Shown here: one piece after another, positions 47,885 to 54,992 of the stretch | Layout of the letters: the number at the start of each line of letters is the position of its first letter | Numbering within the stretch: the stretch's first letter is position 1 | Assembly: GCA_019925105.1 (NCBI GenBank) | Contig: JAHGAU010000016.1 | Coordinates: forward strand, 992,001-1,056,000 | DNA from: Niebla homalea | Taxonomy: Eukaryota > Ascomycota > Lecanoromycetes > Lecanorales > Ramalinaceae | Direction of reading: 5' to 3' | DNA: 64,000 nt | Program-made: the position numbers and the translations under genes | Notes under the pieces: generated by a model | What the model was told of the DNA's origin: nothing | The model's database searches: none | What the model saw: only the letters and a program-made list of their open reading frames with translations

Positions 47885-49879
47885 TGCTTCGTTGCTGTAC
47901 TGAAGGTATTAGACATTTTCGGAACTATAGAGATCGAGATGCTGGCATCCAACAACACGCACCTCCTCCGATACAGGTCGTAAAGAATTGAGAGGTTGGA
48001 AAATTACAAGAGGATGACGACCTCAGGTACTAGTGCGTGTTAAATATGCCACTTTTTGCTTTACTGCAGACCACATACTTTCTAGATTCAGCAGCTCAAA
48101 GAATATGTGCGGGAACTTCAGTACGAGTCGGTTGTGCGTGATGCTGATGGTGTGTGGTGGAGCGTTTATCTTTGTGTCAAAACTCGTCTTTTTCTCCCTC
48201 GTGTAAATTCCCGACCAGCGATAGATTGCGATCCTCCAATCTTCTCCACCGTGATCCTCAATCACAGCGTAAAGTTCCTAGATATGGCGCAAGAATAATT
48301 AAGGTAATGCTGATATTATAGCAGAACGCAGGAACATATTGACTTCTCAAGCTATCAATACCGCAATATCACGTTCAACGAGAGCCAATGATAGTCGCCA
48401 AAATTAGAGGCTTATACGACTACTCTACGGCTTGTCCCGCTGTTTCGGAAGATTTCAAATAATCATTCAGCGTGCCTATCAAGTATGCACTAGCTGCGCC
48501 GGATTTCGACAACTTGCCAACCCGACTGCACGACGCCATTATTCACATTCTCGAACGAGCCTCGCCCGCAAGTATGCGTCTTTTACGAGTCCGAAGCTTC
48601 AGCATATCACCGTCAACTTCGATACCGTGAAATCTACACTAGTAGACAAGCTCAAAATCGACAAGGGTCTTGGGGTTTCGTGAGGATGTCAGAGGTTCTC
48701 AAGGGTTGCAATTTGAGTTGATAGGTGGGGCAAACTCTTGTTTCCTTGACACAGGATGTTTGTCATGCTGCTGATGACGAAAGGGTGCATATTCGGAAGG
48801 CCGTCTTTCCGAATTTCTACTCTAGCTGGGGTGGCTCGGCCGCTCAGGGGAACGCAATTTCAAATAGCTCAAAGCCAGATACTGAACATCGTTCGAGAAA
48901 GCAAAATTTGAATTGATTACTGTATCTTAAGGATATGGGACGCTTCCAATTCAAGCCTGCTGTGAATTGCGGTCGACATGGGTGATTGGATGCATTTGGC
49001 CGGAATTCAGGGGCAAAATGACATCTCTCAAAAATGGTCAATATGGGTATATGAGATTGAAGCTGCATGAGAGAGGATGATCCTGTCAAAGTATGAGGCT
49101 GCTCAGAGTGGTGGTTAGATGGTGGTGGAGTAAGATAGAGTGCAAATGTGCTTGTATCAATGTCCAATTTTAAGATTAGCATCCCATTACCATTGGCCGG
49201 ACCGATTGTGACACATTTGTTTACCCTTCAGTCGTACCCGGATGTCCACTTAGCGTGTCAGGTACTTCGTACTTGTTTCCATTCGATTCTCTCTAAGGCT
49301 CGCTACTGAGGTGCGTGCTCGCTCATCACACACAACATCGACCATGTATCATAAGTCTTGCCAGCATCATCATCGTCCTCTCAAACAATCTTCTGACTCC
49401 TGCCATCCTTTCTCTTGAATTTGAGCACTTTTGAGCCAGTGGTTGTGGCACAGTCGTGTGGGTTGGCCCAACTTGCACCATCACCAAACACGACAACAAC
49501 AACCATCTTCCCAACCACAACCAACAATAAACGTGTACAATGCTCAAAAACGCACATACACGTCAACTCATGTGGTCATATGGCGAATTTGACTTTTTCT
49601 GCACGCCTTGCACTCTTGAAGCTGATGTGGTGGGCGAGATGGCAATATTGCGACCGGGACACAACACCCACATAATGAGTCAAAAATCGTCCCCTTCCAT
49701 CCCCAAACAGCTTTCAAGGACACCAAAGACACTTACTGACACTACTGCTACCCAATTTCAGCGTAAGAAGATTTGAAAGACATTTCTCGACCTACCTCAC
49801 CGCCTCCAATCCGACGTTCCATAACAATCCTGAGCCTCCGACCGGCGTTTTGTCGTGCCAATGGCATTCCATACACAAA
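47885..49879. other. Gene-poor stretch leading into the snoRNA host
   Basis: Holds one inverted repeat copy (48187-48265) and a relic near 48.4-48.6 kb reading SVPIKYALAAPDFDNLPTRL and HDAIIHILERASPASMRLLR with one upstream stop. At 49.71-49.76 kb a cttactgac...tttcag branch/acceptor pair suggests the host transcript may already have an intron upstream of 49761. Confidence 0.35.
48187..48265 (-). repeat. Inverted dispersed repeat, copy 2
   Basis: Minus-strand partner of 46453-46520, reading GGEDWRIAIYRWSGIYTREK. Confidence 0.65.
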
Positions 49880-49918
49880 GTAAGTCTCCCTTATCCCTTC
49901 AAGTATCTTCCATACACC

Positions 49919-50134
49919 CAGAAACAAGATACATTCGATGATGAAAGCACGTCGTTTCGGCGACCTGTCCTCCTTATGATTGTCCATGATTGCACACTAG
50001 GAAACCAAGATGGAGGCTCTCAACCGCGGAGATATGCTTTTTCCATCCTTTGATCTCTGTTCGATTGGGCTTGTACACTACGGCCCTACTGCGGATTGAG
50101 AGTCTCCTCTCCTCTGATAGATGTTTCGATTCTG
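49919..50134 (+). ncRNA. C/D-box RNA candidate 1 (intronic)
   Basis: Box C GATGATGA at 49937-49944 and box D CTGA at 50114-50117. The closing stem is CAGA-AACA (49919-49926) with TGTT...TCTG (50122-50134). It lies within intron 49880-50214, which ends tgctgac...ctcaag. The ~200-nt length is long for a guide snoRNA. Confidence 0.5.
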
Positions 50135-50349
50135 TGGAAATTCTTGAGACTCATTTGCGTCAAGATCTTTTGAAGGTGGCTTTGCTGACTTTTTCCATCT
50201 CAAGGTATTCAACGGTCTCCAAGTCAGCCTCCTCCTCTCAAGCGTCGGAGCCTCCTACCCACATACTGCTATCTCACACCAGAGGATGCACAGCAAGTCT
50301 CCCCTTCCCTTAAAACATCTTCCATACGTCTCCAAAAAGCACACATTGG

Positions 50350-50446
50350 GATGATGAGCAAATTATACGCCAATACAAAGGGCAGGATGCTCAGCAGTCA
50401 GCTTTCGAGCTCTCTGTGATGCATCAAAACAATTAGAATATTCTGA
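50350..50446 (+). ncRNA. C/D-box RNA candidate 2 (intronic)
   Basis: Box C GATGATGA at 50350 and box D CTGA at 50443, with a C'-like TGTGATG between; no good closing stem was found. It lies inside a GC-AG intron (50293-50525) with an actaac branch. Size (~97 nt) is typical of a guide snoRNA. Confidence 0.45.
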
Positions 50447-50740
50447 GATCAAAAATTTAGGCACCGGAGTCTCTCACAATACAAGCAGGTCTGGAAAAGA
50501 AGAGTGCGTTATACTAACGGCTCAGAAAAGGTTGCCTGCGGCGGCCACACTGTACCGCCTGTTGTTCTAGAAGCCTGGTATACTACTGGGCTGAGCGTCC
50601 CGGTGTCCTTTCGACCCTCGGCAGCATCCCCAACCTCTCTCGCCTCAGATGAATTTTTCCAGAAGGCAAGTCCTCCCCTCTGCTGATCTTGGCTCCCTAC
50701 ACACATGCCTCTTCAGACGAGGGTTAGAACTCAGTCCCTC

Positions 50741-50877
50741 GGTTGTTACGATGATGAGAGTTGGTCACTTTGAGACCCAATCGTTGGCCCATTTGGGCTT
50801 CTTGTATTCTGAGGAAGTGCCGGAGTAGCTGCCGGGCTTCCATGATAGAGATGCTAATCTTCGCTGAGTAACAATTC
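50741..50877 (+). ncRNA. C/D-box snoRNA 3 (intronic)
   Basis: Closing stem GGTTGTTAC (50741-50749) pairs with GTAACAATT (50868-50876). Box C GATGATGA follows the 5' strand directly and box D CTGA (50864-50867) precedes the 3' strand directly. An internal CTGA near 50.80 kb may be D'. Located in GC-AG intron 50666-51017. Confidence 0.7.
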
Positions 50878-51133
50878 TTTTCCGAGGGACTGAATATTGA
50901 GATGGGAGCAGGGGCATGATGCTTCATGATGCTTGTCCTTCAGTGCAATTGTTCTTGACATATTGCCGTGCTCGAAGCCTTGGACACAGATGTGCTGACC
51001 ATACGCTTTCCACATAGCTCAACCTTCGCGGCATCGCCCTCTGCCTCTAGTTTATATCCATTCCTTCGAAGGATAAGTCATACAGGTCAGAGCTCCCCTT
51101 TCCTCCAAAAATCACACAATGCGTCTTTCGGGA

Positions 51134-51354
51134 GCACCAATCTTATGATGATAACTTTGGGTAATGGCATGGCATACATAGGTCTGTCTTCTTGTCATTG
51201 TATCGTTTCAAAATGACCTGATGCCCGATCTCTGGAAGACGGAATCATGGCCACTGCTTGGCAACGTTGGTGATGCAACGACCAGAGCTTTGACTGTTGG
51301 TATCCGGTGGAGATAAACTGTGGAGATTTTCTCTGCTTCTGACTAGATTGGTGC
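51134..51354 (+). ncRNA. Long C/D-box RNA, paralog family member a
   Basis: Perfect 10-bp closing stem GCACCAATCT (51134-51143) / AGATTGGTGC (51345-51354) around box C ATGATGA and box D CTGA (51339-51342), with D' CTGA at 51218. Central hairpin GCTTGG..CGTTG-gtgatg-CAACG..CCAGAGC at 51256-51288. It lies in intron 51086-51428. The guide sequence before D' is unique to this copy. Confidence 0.75.
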
Positions 51355-51542
51355 CCTCGCGTTCAAGTTTTCAACACCTTGATTCAACCTTAGCGCATTC
51401 GGACTTGCTGACCTTTCTCATGCTGCAGATCACCTCACTGTCGCCGCATCCCCGCCAGTCCAGACCTTGCCGTCTTCTCCAGTACACAAGTTACGTGTCT
51501 CTTTCTTATCTTTTAGAATTATCTACCATTCCAAATCCATGA

Positions 51543-51701
51543 GCACCAATTCGATGATGAAAGAGTCCTAAGGACACAAACAAAGCTCTTACTGAAGAAG
51601 GGTTGGCGGTCACTGCTTGGAAGCTTTGGTGATACAAAGATCCAAGCTCTGGCTGTGGGCATCCTTTGGAGAAATCTCTGTATCTCTGATAGTTCTGGTG
51701 C
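51543..51701 (+). ncRNA. Long C/D-box RNA, paralog family member b
   Basis: Outer stem GCACCA (51543-51548) / TGGTGC (51696-51701); box C GATGATGA 51553, D' CTGA 51592, box D CTGA 51686. Central hairpin GCTTGGA..CTTTG-gtgata-CAAAG..TCCAAGC at 51615-51647, where two stem pairs differ from member a but pairing is kept. Intron 51490-51779. Confidence 0.75.
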
Positions 51702-51890
51702 CGCTCGGGTTCAAGACCGAACATTGACATTTTTCTTTCTTGCTTGGGAGACATGATTGCTGACTTGTTGCTCCTGCAGACGATAATCAGATTTGGTCTT
51801 GCTGCTAACCAGGGATGTCGTCTGCCAGAAGAAAAACTTCGAGGCAAGTCTACCATTCCTTTTGTAGATCTTCCAGGTCGTAATGTCCTA

Positions 51891-52068
51891 GACCACCAAT
51901 TGCGTGATGAAAATCAATATCAATTCGGTATTATTCTCAATCTGTCAACTGAACAAAGGAGTCATAGACACTATGGTCAGGGCTTGACATCTTGGTGATA
52001 CAATGATTCAAGCTTTGACTGTGGCAATCCTTTGGAGACAAATCTGCTATTCTGACCAAAATGGTACT
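51891..52068 (+). ncRNA. Long C/D-box RNA, paralog family member c
   Basis: Box C GTGATGA 51904, D' CTGA 51949, box D CTGA 52052, with a weaker outer stem (ACCA/TGGT). Central hairpin GCTTGA..ATCTTG-gtgata-CAATGAT..TCAAGC at 51982-52013, again with compensating changes. GC-AG intron 51844-52145. Confidence 0.7.
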
Positions 52069-52238
52069 GTTCGGCTTCAAGCTGGGAGCTTTTGAAATTC
52101 TGATCGACTAAGGGGAAACCCAATTGCTGACTCTTTACCATTAAAGATGTTAGTCCTATCAACCCGTCGGCAAATTATTTTCTCAAAAAAATGTATCCAA
52201 GGCAAGTTTTCACCTTTCATTCCAAGCCTTCCATATCT

Positions 52239-52390
52239 CAGAGCATCATTCCAATGATGAGAACCGTGTCCATCTGAAATAAGGTCCAATGGTCACTGCT
52301 TAGTATTGTTGTTCATGCAACAAATCAAGCTTTGATTGTTCGTGTCTTTTGTAGACCAAATGCTTCTCTTTTCTGACATTACTGCTGCTG
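52239..52390 (+). ncRNA. Long C/D-box RNA, paralog family member d
   Basis: Outer stem CAGAGCA (52239-52245) / TGCTgCTG (52383-52390), box C AATGATGA 52253, D' CTGA 52274, box D CTGA 52373. Central hairpin GCTT..TTGTTG-ttcatg-CAACAA..AAGC at 52298-52330; the loop has diverged from GTGATA. GC-AG intron 52202-52459. Confidence 0.65.
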
Positions 52391-52578
52391 GGATCACATT
52401 CTATTGAAACTGTCCTTTGATTTTTGGATGACGGATATGCTGACTTCGCACGCTTCAAGATGATCGAAAATCCACAATCGGCCTCCAGCTCAGGCTTCAA
52501 CGTTCTTAACCACAATATCAACAAGTTGAGTCTCCACCTTTTCGCGAGAATTCTCTGTCCAAAAACATCTTGATCCGT

Positions 52579-52815
52579 GTAGCACCATTACTGTGATGAT
52601 GGCTAGTCGGCCCGCGACTCGATTATTTCAAATTGACCAAAACAAAGGTAGAGTATGAATGAAATAATCCAGAGAAAGGAATCAAAGCATGGCTGCAATG
52701 GGTTTTCAGTGGAGAAACCAAGACTTCGGCACAGGCACTCGCTGATTACCCACAGCAGTCTGCAACGAACGGCCTTGTGGAGACTTTTTAATCTTTTCTG
52801 AGTAATCGGTGCTAC
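52579..52815 (+). ncRNA. Long C/D-box RNA, paralog family member e
   Basis: Closing stem GTAGCACCATTAC (52579-52591) pairs with GTAATcGGTGCTAC (52802-52815), 13 bp with one bulge, immediately outside box C GTGATGA (52593) and box D CTGA (52798). It shares the tggagac...ttttctga 3' part with members b-d; the central hairpin is not recognisable in the same form. Intron 52525-52902. Confidence 0.7.
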
Positions 52816-53047
52816 CGACTTTGCGAGATAGGCACTGCGCAAGATTTTCTTTTGCCATCTTCAAAAGTGGATTGGCTGACTTTGTGATTTTGCCAAAATC
52901 AGATCTGCGCCGAAGGCTGATTATGTATCGCACAATTTTGGAGGACAAGAGAGGCAAGAGAGGGCGATGCAACCGAAACTTCTGAAATTTACCACACCTG
53001 CTCCCAATCCCCATGATTGGTGGACCTTGACTGACTTCTTGATTTAG

Positions 53048-53731
53048 GGTAGCCAGCAAGAGATTCACCTGTCCGTTGGTGCTGGCTACGAACCTTCTAA
53101 CTTTGTGCTCGCACGAGGTTAGGAGAGCCAAGAATCTCACCGAGTAGCCTCTCTGCCTAGTATCGGGGGCAGTGAGAGCAGAGTAGAGTATCTCATCATT
53201 CCTTTCGTTTGGAAATTGGCTAACTTCTTTTTTCTAGGGCCGGTGACTGGATCCACGGCCTCTCTGCCTAGTATCGGAGGTAGGGAGAGCAGAGTGCAGT
53301 ATCCCATCCCTCCCTTCTCAAAAATTACGGGCTAACTTTTGAACTTAGGGCGGCCGGCAAGAGATCCACCTCTCCGCTGGTGCTGGCTATCCACCTCCCC
53401 TGCCCCGGTCGGGGAGGGCCAAGGATCTCACCGAGTCAAGAGTATCCCCACTCCCAATCTTGTGAGCACTGGCTGACCTCTCCTTCCTAGTGTCGGTGGT
53501 GGCATCGAGCCACTTGGCTGGATCCAAGCTCTCCCGCCTAGTATTGGGGAGGCGAGAGCTGAGTTGAGCAGTCTGATCCCTACCTCCTTGATAAGAGCTT
53601 GCTGACTTTTGGTTCTAGGGCGGCCAGCAAAGATCCACCTCTCCCCGGTGCTGGCTATCAACCTCCCCTGCCGCGGTCGGGGAGGGCTAACGGATCTGGG
53701 AAACGGGGGACTGGTTTGGGATTGCGTATCG
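53048..53731 (+). repeat. Alternating A/B hairpin modules separated by 48-50-nt introns
   Basis: Type A modules (53048-53137, 53349-53441, 53619-53731) share GCCAGC/GCTGGC, a GAGATCC...GGATCTC pair and an internal hairpin. Type B modules (53138-53187, 53238-53298, 53491-53570) share ctctctgcctagtatcgg and a hairpin closed by CTCTC/GAGAG. Four tiny introns (53188-53237, 53299-53348, 53442-53490, 53571-53618) separate the modules from B0 onward; all begin GT, have GGCTAAC/GCTGAC branch points and end in TAG. The exons cannot be coding. Confidence 0.7.
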
Positions 53732-53791
53732 GTGAGTCACCTCATTTTCAATCCTGATCATTTGCATTCCTTGCTCTGCACGTGGATCGTC

Positions 53792-53875
53792 GTGATGAAT
53801 CAAATTTCAATATTATTTCCTAGTGATTTCAACCCAACTTTACTGGGTCGGTACAAACGGCGATGTACCATCTGA
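53792..53875 (+). ncRNA. C/D-box RNA candidate in the last mapped intron
   Basis: Box C GTGATGA 53792 and box D CTGA 53872 give a typical ~84-nt guide size inside intron 53732-53973 (GTGAGT donor, ggctgac branch, ttag acceptor). No convincing closing stem was found; an alternative D box is at 53940. Confidence 0.45.
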
Positions 53876-53973
53876 ACGCATGCCTCCATATATTGGAGGG
53901 TCTACATAGAACATTTTCACTCACCTGCGGCACGCTCGTCTGAGAAACCCTGGCTGACTTGAATCTCTCTTAG

Positions 53974-54312
53974 GATCTCAAAACTCTCTATCTTCCTCGC
54001 ATGCTGAACTTTGGCTAACTTCTTCTCTCAGAACGGGCATCGAGGGACTTTGATGCCTTGTCCGACGCGGATCACACTGATTGACAAGCTTGTCTGAGGA
54101 GATGCTCGCTAGGGTGAATATTTGTCTCGAAGCTTCTGCTTTAAAGACATAGACCCTTGCCTACAGCTTTCCATTGATGATCATATTATACTACACAAAT
54201 GATGTGCTTAGCCTCCGGTATACCGGGTTGGGTTCGCATCGGTCAAAGCATTACAATTTTTGAAACTTGATTGGGAACCACGAGGGACTCAAACAGGGCG
54301 GTCTCTAGCCCC
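53974..54312. other. Downstream part of the host locus
   Basis: Another ggctaac...ctcag branch/acceptor pair near 54012-54030 suggests at least one more intron; otherwise nothing recognised. Confidence 0.35.
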
Positions 54313-54478
54313 GGTGATTGCTATGATGATCCATCACTACCAACTGATACTACCCTTTTGACAAGGAGCCATCTTGTGTTTCACTTGGGATACCAGACTA
54401 CCCTTGCGGTAGGCCATTACTCCCATGAGAAGCCTGTTGTGTTCCACATGCAAAGACCGAGCGTTCTGAGCAATCACC
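54313..54478 (+). ncRNA. C/D-box RNA with perfect 9-bp terminal stem
   Basis: GGTGATTGC (54313-54321) pairs perfectly with GCAATCACC (54470-54478). Box C TATGATGA follows and box D CTGA (54466-54469) precedes the stem halves exactly as in C/D snoRNAs. An internal CTGA at 54344 and an ATGAGAAG at 54425 could be D' and C'. Shares its flank (ctagcccc) and both box regions with the RNA at 54665. Confidence 0.75.
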
Positions 54479-54664
54479 GAATGCGGCAGAGGATGGATTG
54501 AATTCGGGAGGATGGATGTTTTGGGAAGTGGGTCGGCAATGGTCGAGGGAAATAGGGCGATCATGGGTGGTCACGTGAGAGATGCCAAAGTGCGTCAAGG
54601 TTGTCTCTCTGAGCGCCTTCGGTCGTCACATTTGAAGATATCTCACTTACCGCCCTAGCCCCAG

Positions 54665-54801
54665 GGTTGCTATGATGACTTGAAAAACAAAACTGTAAAG
54701 AACATTCGCAAGGGTGAAGTGACTATCATGAGGAAGCGCTACCCATGACTCACCTCGCGGCCCCAATGAGAAGAACTTTTCAGAGCTACCACTGAGCAAC
54801 C
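54665..54801 (+). ncRNA. C/D-box RNA, paralog of the 54313 RNA
   Basis: GGTTGC (54665-54670) / GCAACC (54796-54801) close box C ATGATGA (54672) and box D CTGA (54792-54795). It shares gctatgatga, an atgagaag element and ctgagcaa with the preceding RNA, but the guide-like interior differs. Flanked upstream by cttaccgccctagcccc. Confidence 0.7.
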
Positions 54802-54992
54802 ACAGACTTGAATAATTAGATGCTGATGAGAAGTATCCGCAGCTGAGCATCAATTTTATCAATTGAACCATTTCCAGACCAATCCATCTTCACGTGTATT
54901 TCTCGCGTCGCGACCCCATTCTTGCGTTATGCCATCAAGCAACTGCCAATCGTCAATTAACTTTGCCTGTACTTGAATAGATCATTCCCGAG

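Follow-up and report, generated by a model that had tools for sequence, protein, structure and literature searches.

Probable box C/D snoRNA host locus with predicted HDV-like ribozymes in Niebla homalea

INTRODUCTION

Clusters of box C/D small nucleolar RNAs (snoRNAs) in the introns of noncoding hosts are a known fungal arrangement, established in Neurospora crassa, where the hosts are UHG-like (PMC2780460; statements about this and the other papers cited refer to the parts of each that were covered). Here we analyzed a locus of Niebla homalea for which such a host had been predicted, at positions 49880 to 54801 of a 64,000-nucleotide (nt) stretch, referred to as the window (GenBank assembly GCA_019925105.1, contig JAHGAU010000016.1, positions 992,001 to 1,056,000). 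The original prediction stated that fungi carry intronic snoRNA clusters in noncoding hosts, and the Neurospora genes bear this out. Like these UHG-like hosts, the predicted host in the window has one C/D snoRNA per intron, several introns, and short open reading frames (ORFs) only (PMC2780460). It differs in the length of its C/D elements, which were described as unusually long by the original prediction and reach about 240 nt, versus mostly 69 to 137 nt in Neurospora (Table 1 of PMC2780460; the longest apart from U3 are 177 and 212 nt). It also differs in an internal hairpin shared by its long elements, when compared with the Neurospora C/D RNAs (PMC2780460), and in carrying predicted ribozymes, of which the Neurospora paper makes no mention in the parts covered.

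These ribozymes resemble that of hepatitis delta virus (HDV). R2 retrotransposons carry HDV-like ribozymes (PMC3774820); the likeness to R2 is that of an HDV-like ribozyme that would free one RNA from a longer transcript, whereas no retroelement coding sequence was seen here. In PMC5640933, HDV ribozyme variants of fungi form one class and an atypical snoRNA motif another; the gene associations of ribozymes are described there as widely variable, and in the parts covered, ribozymes are not joined with snoRNAs. Among the literature matches listed, in which coverage of subscription journals and supplements was limited, there was no report of HDV-like ribozymes linked with snoRNA genes. The host is a C/D host of known kind; its union with HDV-like ribozymes, together with a second array of ribozymes and H/ACA-like units in the same genome, would be new.

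We propose that the + strand of this region is probably a noncoding, multiexon host of C/D snoRNAs, the 3' part of which carries three HDV-like ribozymes that would cut there. The basis of the analysis is DNA sequence, and the transcripts, introns, snoRNAs, and ribozymes named below are predictions. Positions are those of the window unless a locus is named. The introns, the rRNA, and the relatives of one window protein, which bear the names of lichen-forming ascomycetes among the 120 of 354 matches listed, indicate a filamentous ascomycete. The assembly comprises 50.6 Mb in 52 contigs, and the window belongs to contig C16; locus L014 is C3:1498000-1507900, and the other loci (L015, L016, L019, L037 to L039, and L041) are stretches of the same genome.

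RESULTS

Box C/D elements lie on one strand, most of them within predicted introns

Between positions 49800 and 54900, the box C motif RTGATGA was found 11 times on the + strand and once on the - strand, compared with 16 times on each strand in the remaining 58.9 kb of the window. About 1.4 occurrences were expected on the + strand of the region (Poisson P of 2.6e-7). Ten of these boxes could be paired with a box D (CTGA), as in box C/D snoRNAs, giving elements A to J; the D boxes of B, E, F, and G were assigned by reading. The remaining box C, at 53792, is without a convincing partner. The original prediction had counted at least eleven pairs in one orientation; the orientation stands, and the pairs come to ten. 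The box C/D array on the + strand is real, in smaller numbers than first counted. The elements, the introns predicted around them, and one host exon are as follows.

49880..50204, + strand, intron with C/D element A; box C 49938, box D 50114-50117; donor GTAAGT, acceptor GCTGAC..AAG; stem score 5.0
50293..50487, + strand, intron-like stretch with C/D element B; box C 50351, box D 50443-50446; donor GCAAGT; weak acceptor; acceptor and D box by reading
50488..50665, + strand, host exon with two UAUACUA-loop hairpins (50511 and 50580); overlaps a spliced ORF of 105 amino acids (aa)
50666..51017, + strand, intron with C/D element C (50741-50875); box C 50751, box D 50864-50867; stem score 8.5
51086..51428, + strand, intron with C/D element D (51132-51356); box C 51145, box D 51339-51342; stem score 14.5
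51490..51779, + strand, intron with C/D element E (51541-51704); box C 51554, box D 51686-51689; aligned with D, F, G, and H
51844..52146, + strand, intron with C/D element F (51891-52072); box C 51904, box D 52052-52055; donor GCAAGT
52202..52459, + strand, intron with C/D element G (52241-52394); box C 52254, box D 52373-52376; donor GCAAGT
52525..52902, + strand, intron with C/D element H (52578-52816); box C 52593, box D 52798-52801; stem score 6.5
54308..54485, + strand, C/D element I; box C 54323, box D 54466-54469; stem score 14.0; no clear intron
54655..54812, + strand, C/D element J; box C 54672, box D 54792-54795; stem score 9.0; no clear intron

A closing stem with a score of at least 5 was found for seven C/D pairs on the + strand of the region (A, C, D, E, H, I, and J), versus none on its - strand, two on each strand of the window remainder, and a mean of 0.22 in 60 dinucleotide shuffles. 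At a score of at least 8, five pairs remained in the region, versus none on the - strand, none on either strand of the window remainder, and 0.00 in the 60 shuffles; a separate set of 60 shuffles, drawn for a score of at least 10, contained one match. For element E, the CTGA used in scoring the stem lies inside the predicted branch point and is not its assigned D box, 51686-51689, so that with assigned D boxes the result at a score of at least 8 holds for four of the five pairs. A closing stem next to the boxes was present for C, D, H, I, and J and, weakly, for A. The four stems singled out as strong by the original prediction (50741/50868, 51134/51345, 52579/52802, and 54313/54470) had scores of 8.5, 14.5, 6.5, and 14.0, respectively, in agreement with it.

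The splice signals show the same strand preference. The acceptor pattern GCTRAC..AG, which was picked after the region had been read, occurred 13 times on the + strand and not at all on the - strand of the region, compared with 12 and 7 times, respectively, in the 49.8 kb upstream. Eight elements (A to H) are each flanked by donor-like and acceptor-like sites. The acceptor follows the pattern for seven of the eight, and B has a weaker one, by reading; four of the eight introns have the donor GCAAGT. Nine elements in separate introns with clear branch points and acceptors had been predicted originally, a number that has to be lowered to eight, several with poor donors (see below). With element ends set by eye, the distance from the end of the element to the branch-point A was 49 to 63 nt for six of the eight intronic elements (A, 63; D, 55; E, 59; F, 58; G, 49; and H, 63 nt). 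It was 123 nt for C, and B has no branch point close by (548 nt). Exons 4 to 8 of the predicted chain measure 55 to 68 nt each. Taken on its own, an intronic C/D host at this locus is very likely.

The extra length of elements D to G goes with an internal hairpin that they share, between boxes D' and D (positions 51241-52375). It has 18 consensus pairs, 4 of which are changed on both sides in the four sequences, and the fold z scores were -3.6 for E, -3.2 for F, -2.0 for G, and +0.4 for D.

One element has a guide matching 18S rRNA

The original prediction had named a comparison of the guides with rRNA as a check. The ribosomal DNA (rDNA) of the same genome was found by pattern (L019, - strand), and its readable part comprises the 18S, the 5.8S, and the first 754 nt of the 25S sequences, the rest being N. 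Guides, which in box C/D snoRNAs pair over 10 to 21 bp up to box D or D', were required to end 0 to 2 nt before CTGA, the target was set at position +5, and 30 sets of shuffled rRNA served as a control. The one guide that stood out was the following.

51934-51948, + strand, guide of element F, followed by box D' CTGA at 51949-51952; 15 bp, including one G-U, with 18S TTGACAGATTGAGAG

Its score of 14 was above all 30 shuffled sets, in which the best of ten elements reached 8 to 11. The +5 rule places the target at the C of TTGAC in 18S, which we take to be the counterpart of human 18S Cm1272 (SNORD66). This target is absent from the 18S sites in the Neurospora table, as far as the covered part of that paper goes (PMC2780460). 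In the same readable rRNA, the scores were at the level of chance for D (10), G and H (9 each), and A, E, and I (8 each), and no match was obtained for C and J. Element B has 13 perfect pairs to 18S at 50374-50386, but its D' box is poor (ATGC). As a separate observation, the 18S rDNA of L019 (- strand) contains a 269-nt insertion with spliceosomal-type ends, plus at least one further insertion.

Three predicted HDV-like ribozymes lie in the 3' part of the region

The original prediction of a noncoding host gene of known type is partly supported by the spacing of the splice signals, the stems, the one guide, and a protein search with the longest spliced ORF (105 aa), which gave no relative at an E value of 10 or lower among six candidates. 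It overlooked three HDV-like ribozymes in predicted exons within 53051-53698, because of which the locus is not simply a host gene of that type.

53051..53138, + strand, HDV-like ribozyme W1; predicted cut before 53051; held-out model 68.1 bits, E of 9.2e-16
53352..53429, + strand, HDV-like ribozyme W2; predicted cut before 53352; Rfam 33.2 bits; held-out model 44.1 bits, E of 1.3e-9
53622..53698, + strand, HDV-like ribozyme W3; predicted cut before 53622; Rfam 32.8 bits; held-out model 46.6 bits, E of 2.9e-10

W1 was noticed by eye and not by Rfam. With relaxed thresholds, the Rfam HDV_ribozyme model matched 53350-53431 (33.2 bits, E of 0.06) and 53620-53699 (32.8 bits, E of 0.07). The held-out model was built from ten copies outside the window (see below), and its next match in the window after W1 to W3 had an E value of only 0.53. 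Because the ten copies were found by likeness to W1, independent support is strongest for W2 and W3, both of which Rfam picks too. In all three cases, the predicted cut lies 3 nt past a predicted 3' splice site (exon starts at 53349 and 53619 for W2 and W3, and AG at 53046-53047 for W1). The acceptors before W2 and W3 follow the GCTRAC..AG pattern; that of W1 was found by reading, with a branch sequence, ACTGAC, outside the pattern.

A DNA search of the genome with the region gave ten further matches, nine on contig C3 and one on C38, all to one stretch of W1. When the 13 copies (3 in the window and 10 outside) were aligned, helices P1 to P4 were paired in 93.1% of cells, versus 36.5 to 48.8% when slid; by helix, the values were 96.7% for P1, 85.1% for P2, 84.6% for P3, and 100% for P4. 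The four helices follow the order of a nested double pseudoknot. The covariation score and the paired cells were above all but 1 of 500 shuffles. The pair at the cut site is purine-pyrimidine in every copy, G-U in 12 and A-U in 1, and the joining segment J4/2 has an invariant GC ahead of (C/U)AA or CGA in all 13. By likeness to HDV ribozymes, the C of this GC may be the catalytic cytosine. The window and C3 copies are like the fungal HDV variants of PMC5640933 in the pseudoknot layout of P1 to P4 and in an extra nucleotide between P2 and P3, whereas the cut-site pair in those variants is typically C-G. W1 and the C3 copies have an ACGAACC..GGAGAGCC form of P4, by reading maybe the loop-E form of the same paper (PMC5640933), and W2 and W3 lack the ACGAACC form. 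We have high confidence that an HDV-like ribozyme fold is present in the window.

A larger model gave 18 matches at E values of 1.6e-5 or lower in eight sources. Thirteen were the copies used to build it, and the five others lay in L038, in L039 (two), in L041, and at L014:7746-7826. Searching by pattern for the conserved core, with as many as 3 mismatches allowed, gave 18 places, against 1 for the backwards control, and yielded four of these five. A second pattern search gave 16 places and no further ribozyme, and of eight doubtful loci, only L037, which is the L041 place, matched. L016, the best Rfam match of the genome, reached only 19.6 bits with the larger model. In L039, by reading, the P1 sequence differs on both strands yet still pairs. 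The copies that stand singly are listed here.

L015:4620-4695, - strand, single HDV-like copy
L038:3011-3091, - strand, single HDV-like copy
L039:2810-2893, - strand, HDV-like copy
L039:4825-4907, - strand, HDV-like copy
L041:983-1058, + strand, single HDV-like copy

No ACA was found just before the predicted cut in the four of these that were read (L015, L038, and the two in L039).

A sister array on contig C3 alternates ribozymes with H/ACA-like units

On the - strand of L014, between 4721 and 7826, ten HDV-like copies in tandem alternate with H/ACA-like units. The copies are spaced by 242 to 308 nt, except for two gaps of 621 and 521 nt, the second of which holds a decayed copy (12.1 bits). 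In the spacer before copy A2 (L014:6964-7127), an unconstrained fold gave a hairpin, AAGATCAAAT, a second hairpin, GACATAT, and then the ribozyme; the upper stem ends 14 nt ahead of the ACA, by reading. The likeness to box H/ACA snoRNAs, which concerns the C3 array only and was seen in the spacer before A2, lies in the order hairpin, ANANNA hinge, hairpin, and ACA plus 3 nt, with a clear fold in this unit and the ANANNA recognized by reading. Unlike in box H/ACA snoRNAs, the units are in tandem and the 3' end would come from a ribozyme cut; the window contains no counterpart.

In six of the nine units tested, 3 nt separate the end of the last ACA from the predicted cut (A2, A3, A4, A5, and A8, plus A6 by its first ACA). 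A6 has ACACAT, with a gap of 3 or 1 nt, and the gap is 6 nt for A1 and A7 and 5 nt for A9. Since recent duplication gave rise to several of the units, these cases are not independent. Compared with simple shuffles, fold z scores for the 85 nt ahead of each cut ranged from -4.3 to +0.1; for A3, A4, and A6, the base of the hairpin is paired otherwise in the best fold of this piece. The H/ACA-like units had no target above shuffles. Matches to the array elsewhere in the genome were limited to the ribozyme part (4 places, one at an E value of 0.53). The UAUACUA-loop hairpin occurs ten times in the array and twice in the window (50497-50600, in the exon at 50488-50665), where its folds were no better than shuffles (z scores of 0.00 and -0.74); the scan gave two further window matches on the - strand, in another loop context. 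Separately, the array unit at L014:5355-5476 (- strand) matches the H/ACA end of the Rfam model Telomerase-vert with 31.3 bits (cutoff of 70), with the loop CCUGAGCUGUGG.

DISCUSSION

Boxes, several closing stems, splice signals, one guide, and HDV-type pairings are present in the region. From these, we infer expression, splicing, and cutting, as well as the purpose of the cutting. A multiexon, probably noncoding + strand transcript would host box C/D snoRNAs, with a single one in each intron. Splicing and debranching, followed by exonuclease trimming down to the C/D core, would release them. The freed snoRNAs would guide 2'-O-methylation, that of element F being directed to a C of 18S rRNA. 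In the 3' part, the three HDV-like ribozymes would cut the host RNA 3 nt past 3' splice sites and therefore would compete with, or follow, splicing of the upstream intron. Such cutting could be a processing or dosage step on the host. That cutting of the host transcript is the function of the ribozymes seems to us slightly short of an even call.

Since the C3 array alternates ribozymes with another class of snoRNA, ribozymes may help to excise snoRNAs. In that array, the ribozyme after each H/ACA unit would cut 3 nt past the ACA, directly making the mature 3' end and leaving a ribozyme leader with a 5'-OH on the following unit; in the window host, cuts 3 nt past the 3' splice sites might set the balance between splicing and release. 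Based on the predicted cuts at ACA plus 3 in C3 and at acceptor plus 3 in the window, we tentatively suggest that HDV-like ribozymes are a part of snoRNA biogenesis in Niebla homalea. Little is settled about the function of HDV-like ribozymes other than those of viruses and retroelements, and RNases and splicing are generally held responsible for the ends of tandem snoRNAs. If true, this would amount to a new route of RNA processing, with ribozymes punctuating snoRNA arrays, and the positions of the predicted cuts make ribozyme processing of a cellular noncoding RNA directly testable.

Several results weigh against a ribozyme-bearing C/D host. Elements B, F, and G have weak stems (scores below 4), the donors of D, E, and H (GTCAGA, GTTACG, and GTTGAG) are poor, and H, I, and J lie at the edge of or outside the support from the splice pattern. 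Nine of the ten elements lack a guide above chance in the readable rRNA. For the ribozymes, the held-out test is not fully independent because its copies were found by likeness to W1. The Rfam scores (33.2 and 32.8 bits in the window and 34.7 bits for the best of the genome) fall short of the RF00094 gathering score of 50 bits, for which reason the copies are named HDV-like and not members of RF00094. The relaxed Rfam search found two places in the whole genome, one of them in the window, and was also positive in 4 of 14 unrelated control genomes. A bare structural descriptor matched seven places on the + strand of the window and three on the - strand, with 22 matches in 12 shuffles. Pairs changed on both sides were weak evidence, with 28 of 500 shuffles as high, and further pair types were no better than shuffles, with 346 of 500 as high.

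The locus could instead be an ordinary UHG-type C/D host in which the stretches resembling ribozymes are silent or decaying remnants that contribute nothing to snoRNA production. Such hosts are established in Neurospora (PMC2780460), HDV-like copies stand alone at L015, L038, and L039 and so need no snoRNA neighbor, and among the three window ribozymes, divergence is greatest in W2 and W3. Despite this divergence, all three retain P1, P2, P3, P4, and the GC of J4/2, as well as the same 3-nt spacing from the acceptor, and we regard the ribozymes as unlikely to be relics. The carriage of such ribozymes by R2 elements (PMC3774820) raises another origin, in which the ribozymes arrived with a retroelement, like R2 with a ribozyme at its 5' end, or with a repeat resembling a short interspersed element (SINE) that inserted into the host. 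This is quite improbable: no + strand ORF of at least 150 aa overlaps 49880-54801, and in DNA searches using either the region or the C3 array as the query, in which only the best candidates were scored, the ribozyme part alone matched and no dispersed element was found. The host might also be a protein-coding gene with snoRNA introns, given that predicted splicing of 49860-51085 leaves a 105-aa ORF open over exons 1 to 4. This ORF stops before most exons of the chain, its junctions are only predicted, and a protein search with it returned six candidates, none at an E value of 10 or lower; a coding host is thus very improbable.

Minor features of the region and of the C3 locus

Between the predicted ribozymes lies a further exon with repeated hairpins, the folds of which were no better than shuffles (z scores of -0.81, -0.77, and -1.46).

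53238..53299, + strand, two-hairpin exon between predicted ribozymes; similar repeated hairpins at 53147-53186 and 53491-53570

Beyond the C3 array, L014:1-2700 (- strand) contains 39 donor-like GTRAGT words in 2.7 kb, compared with 1 in the 3.45 kb of the array.

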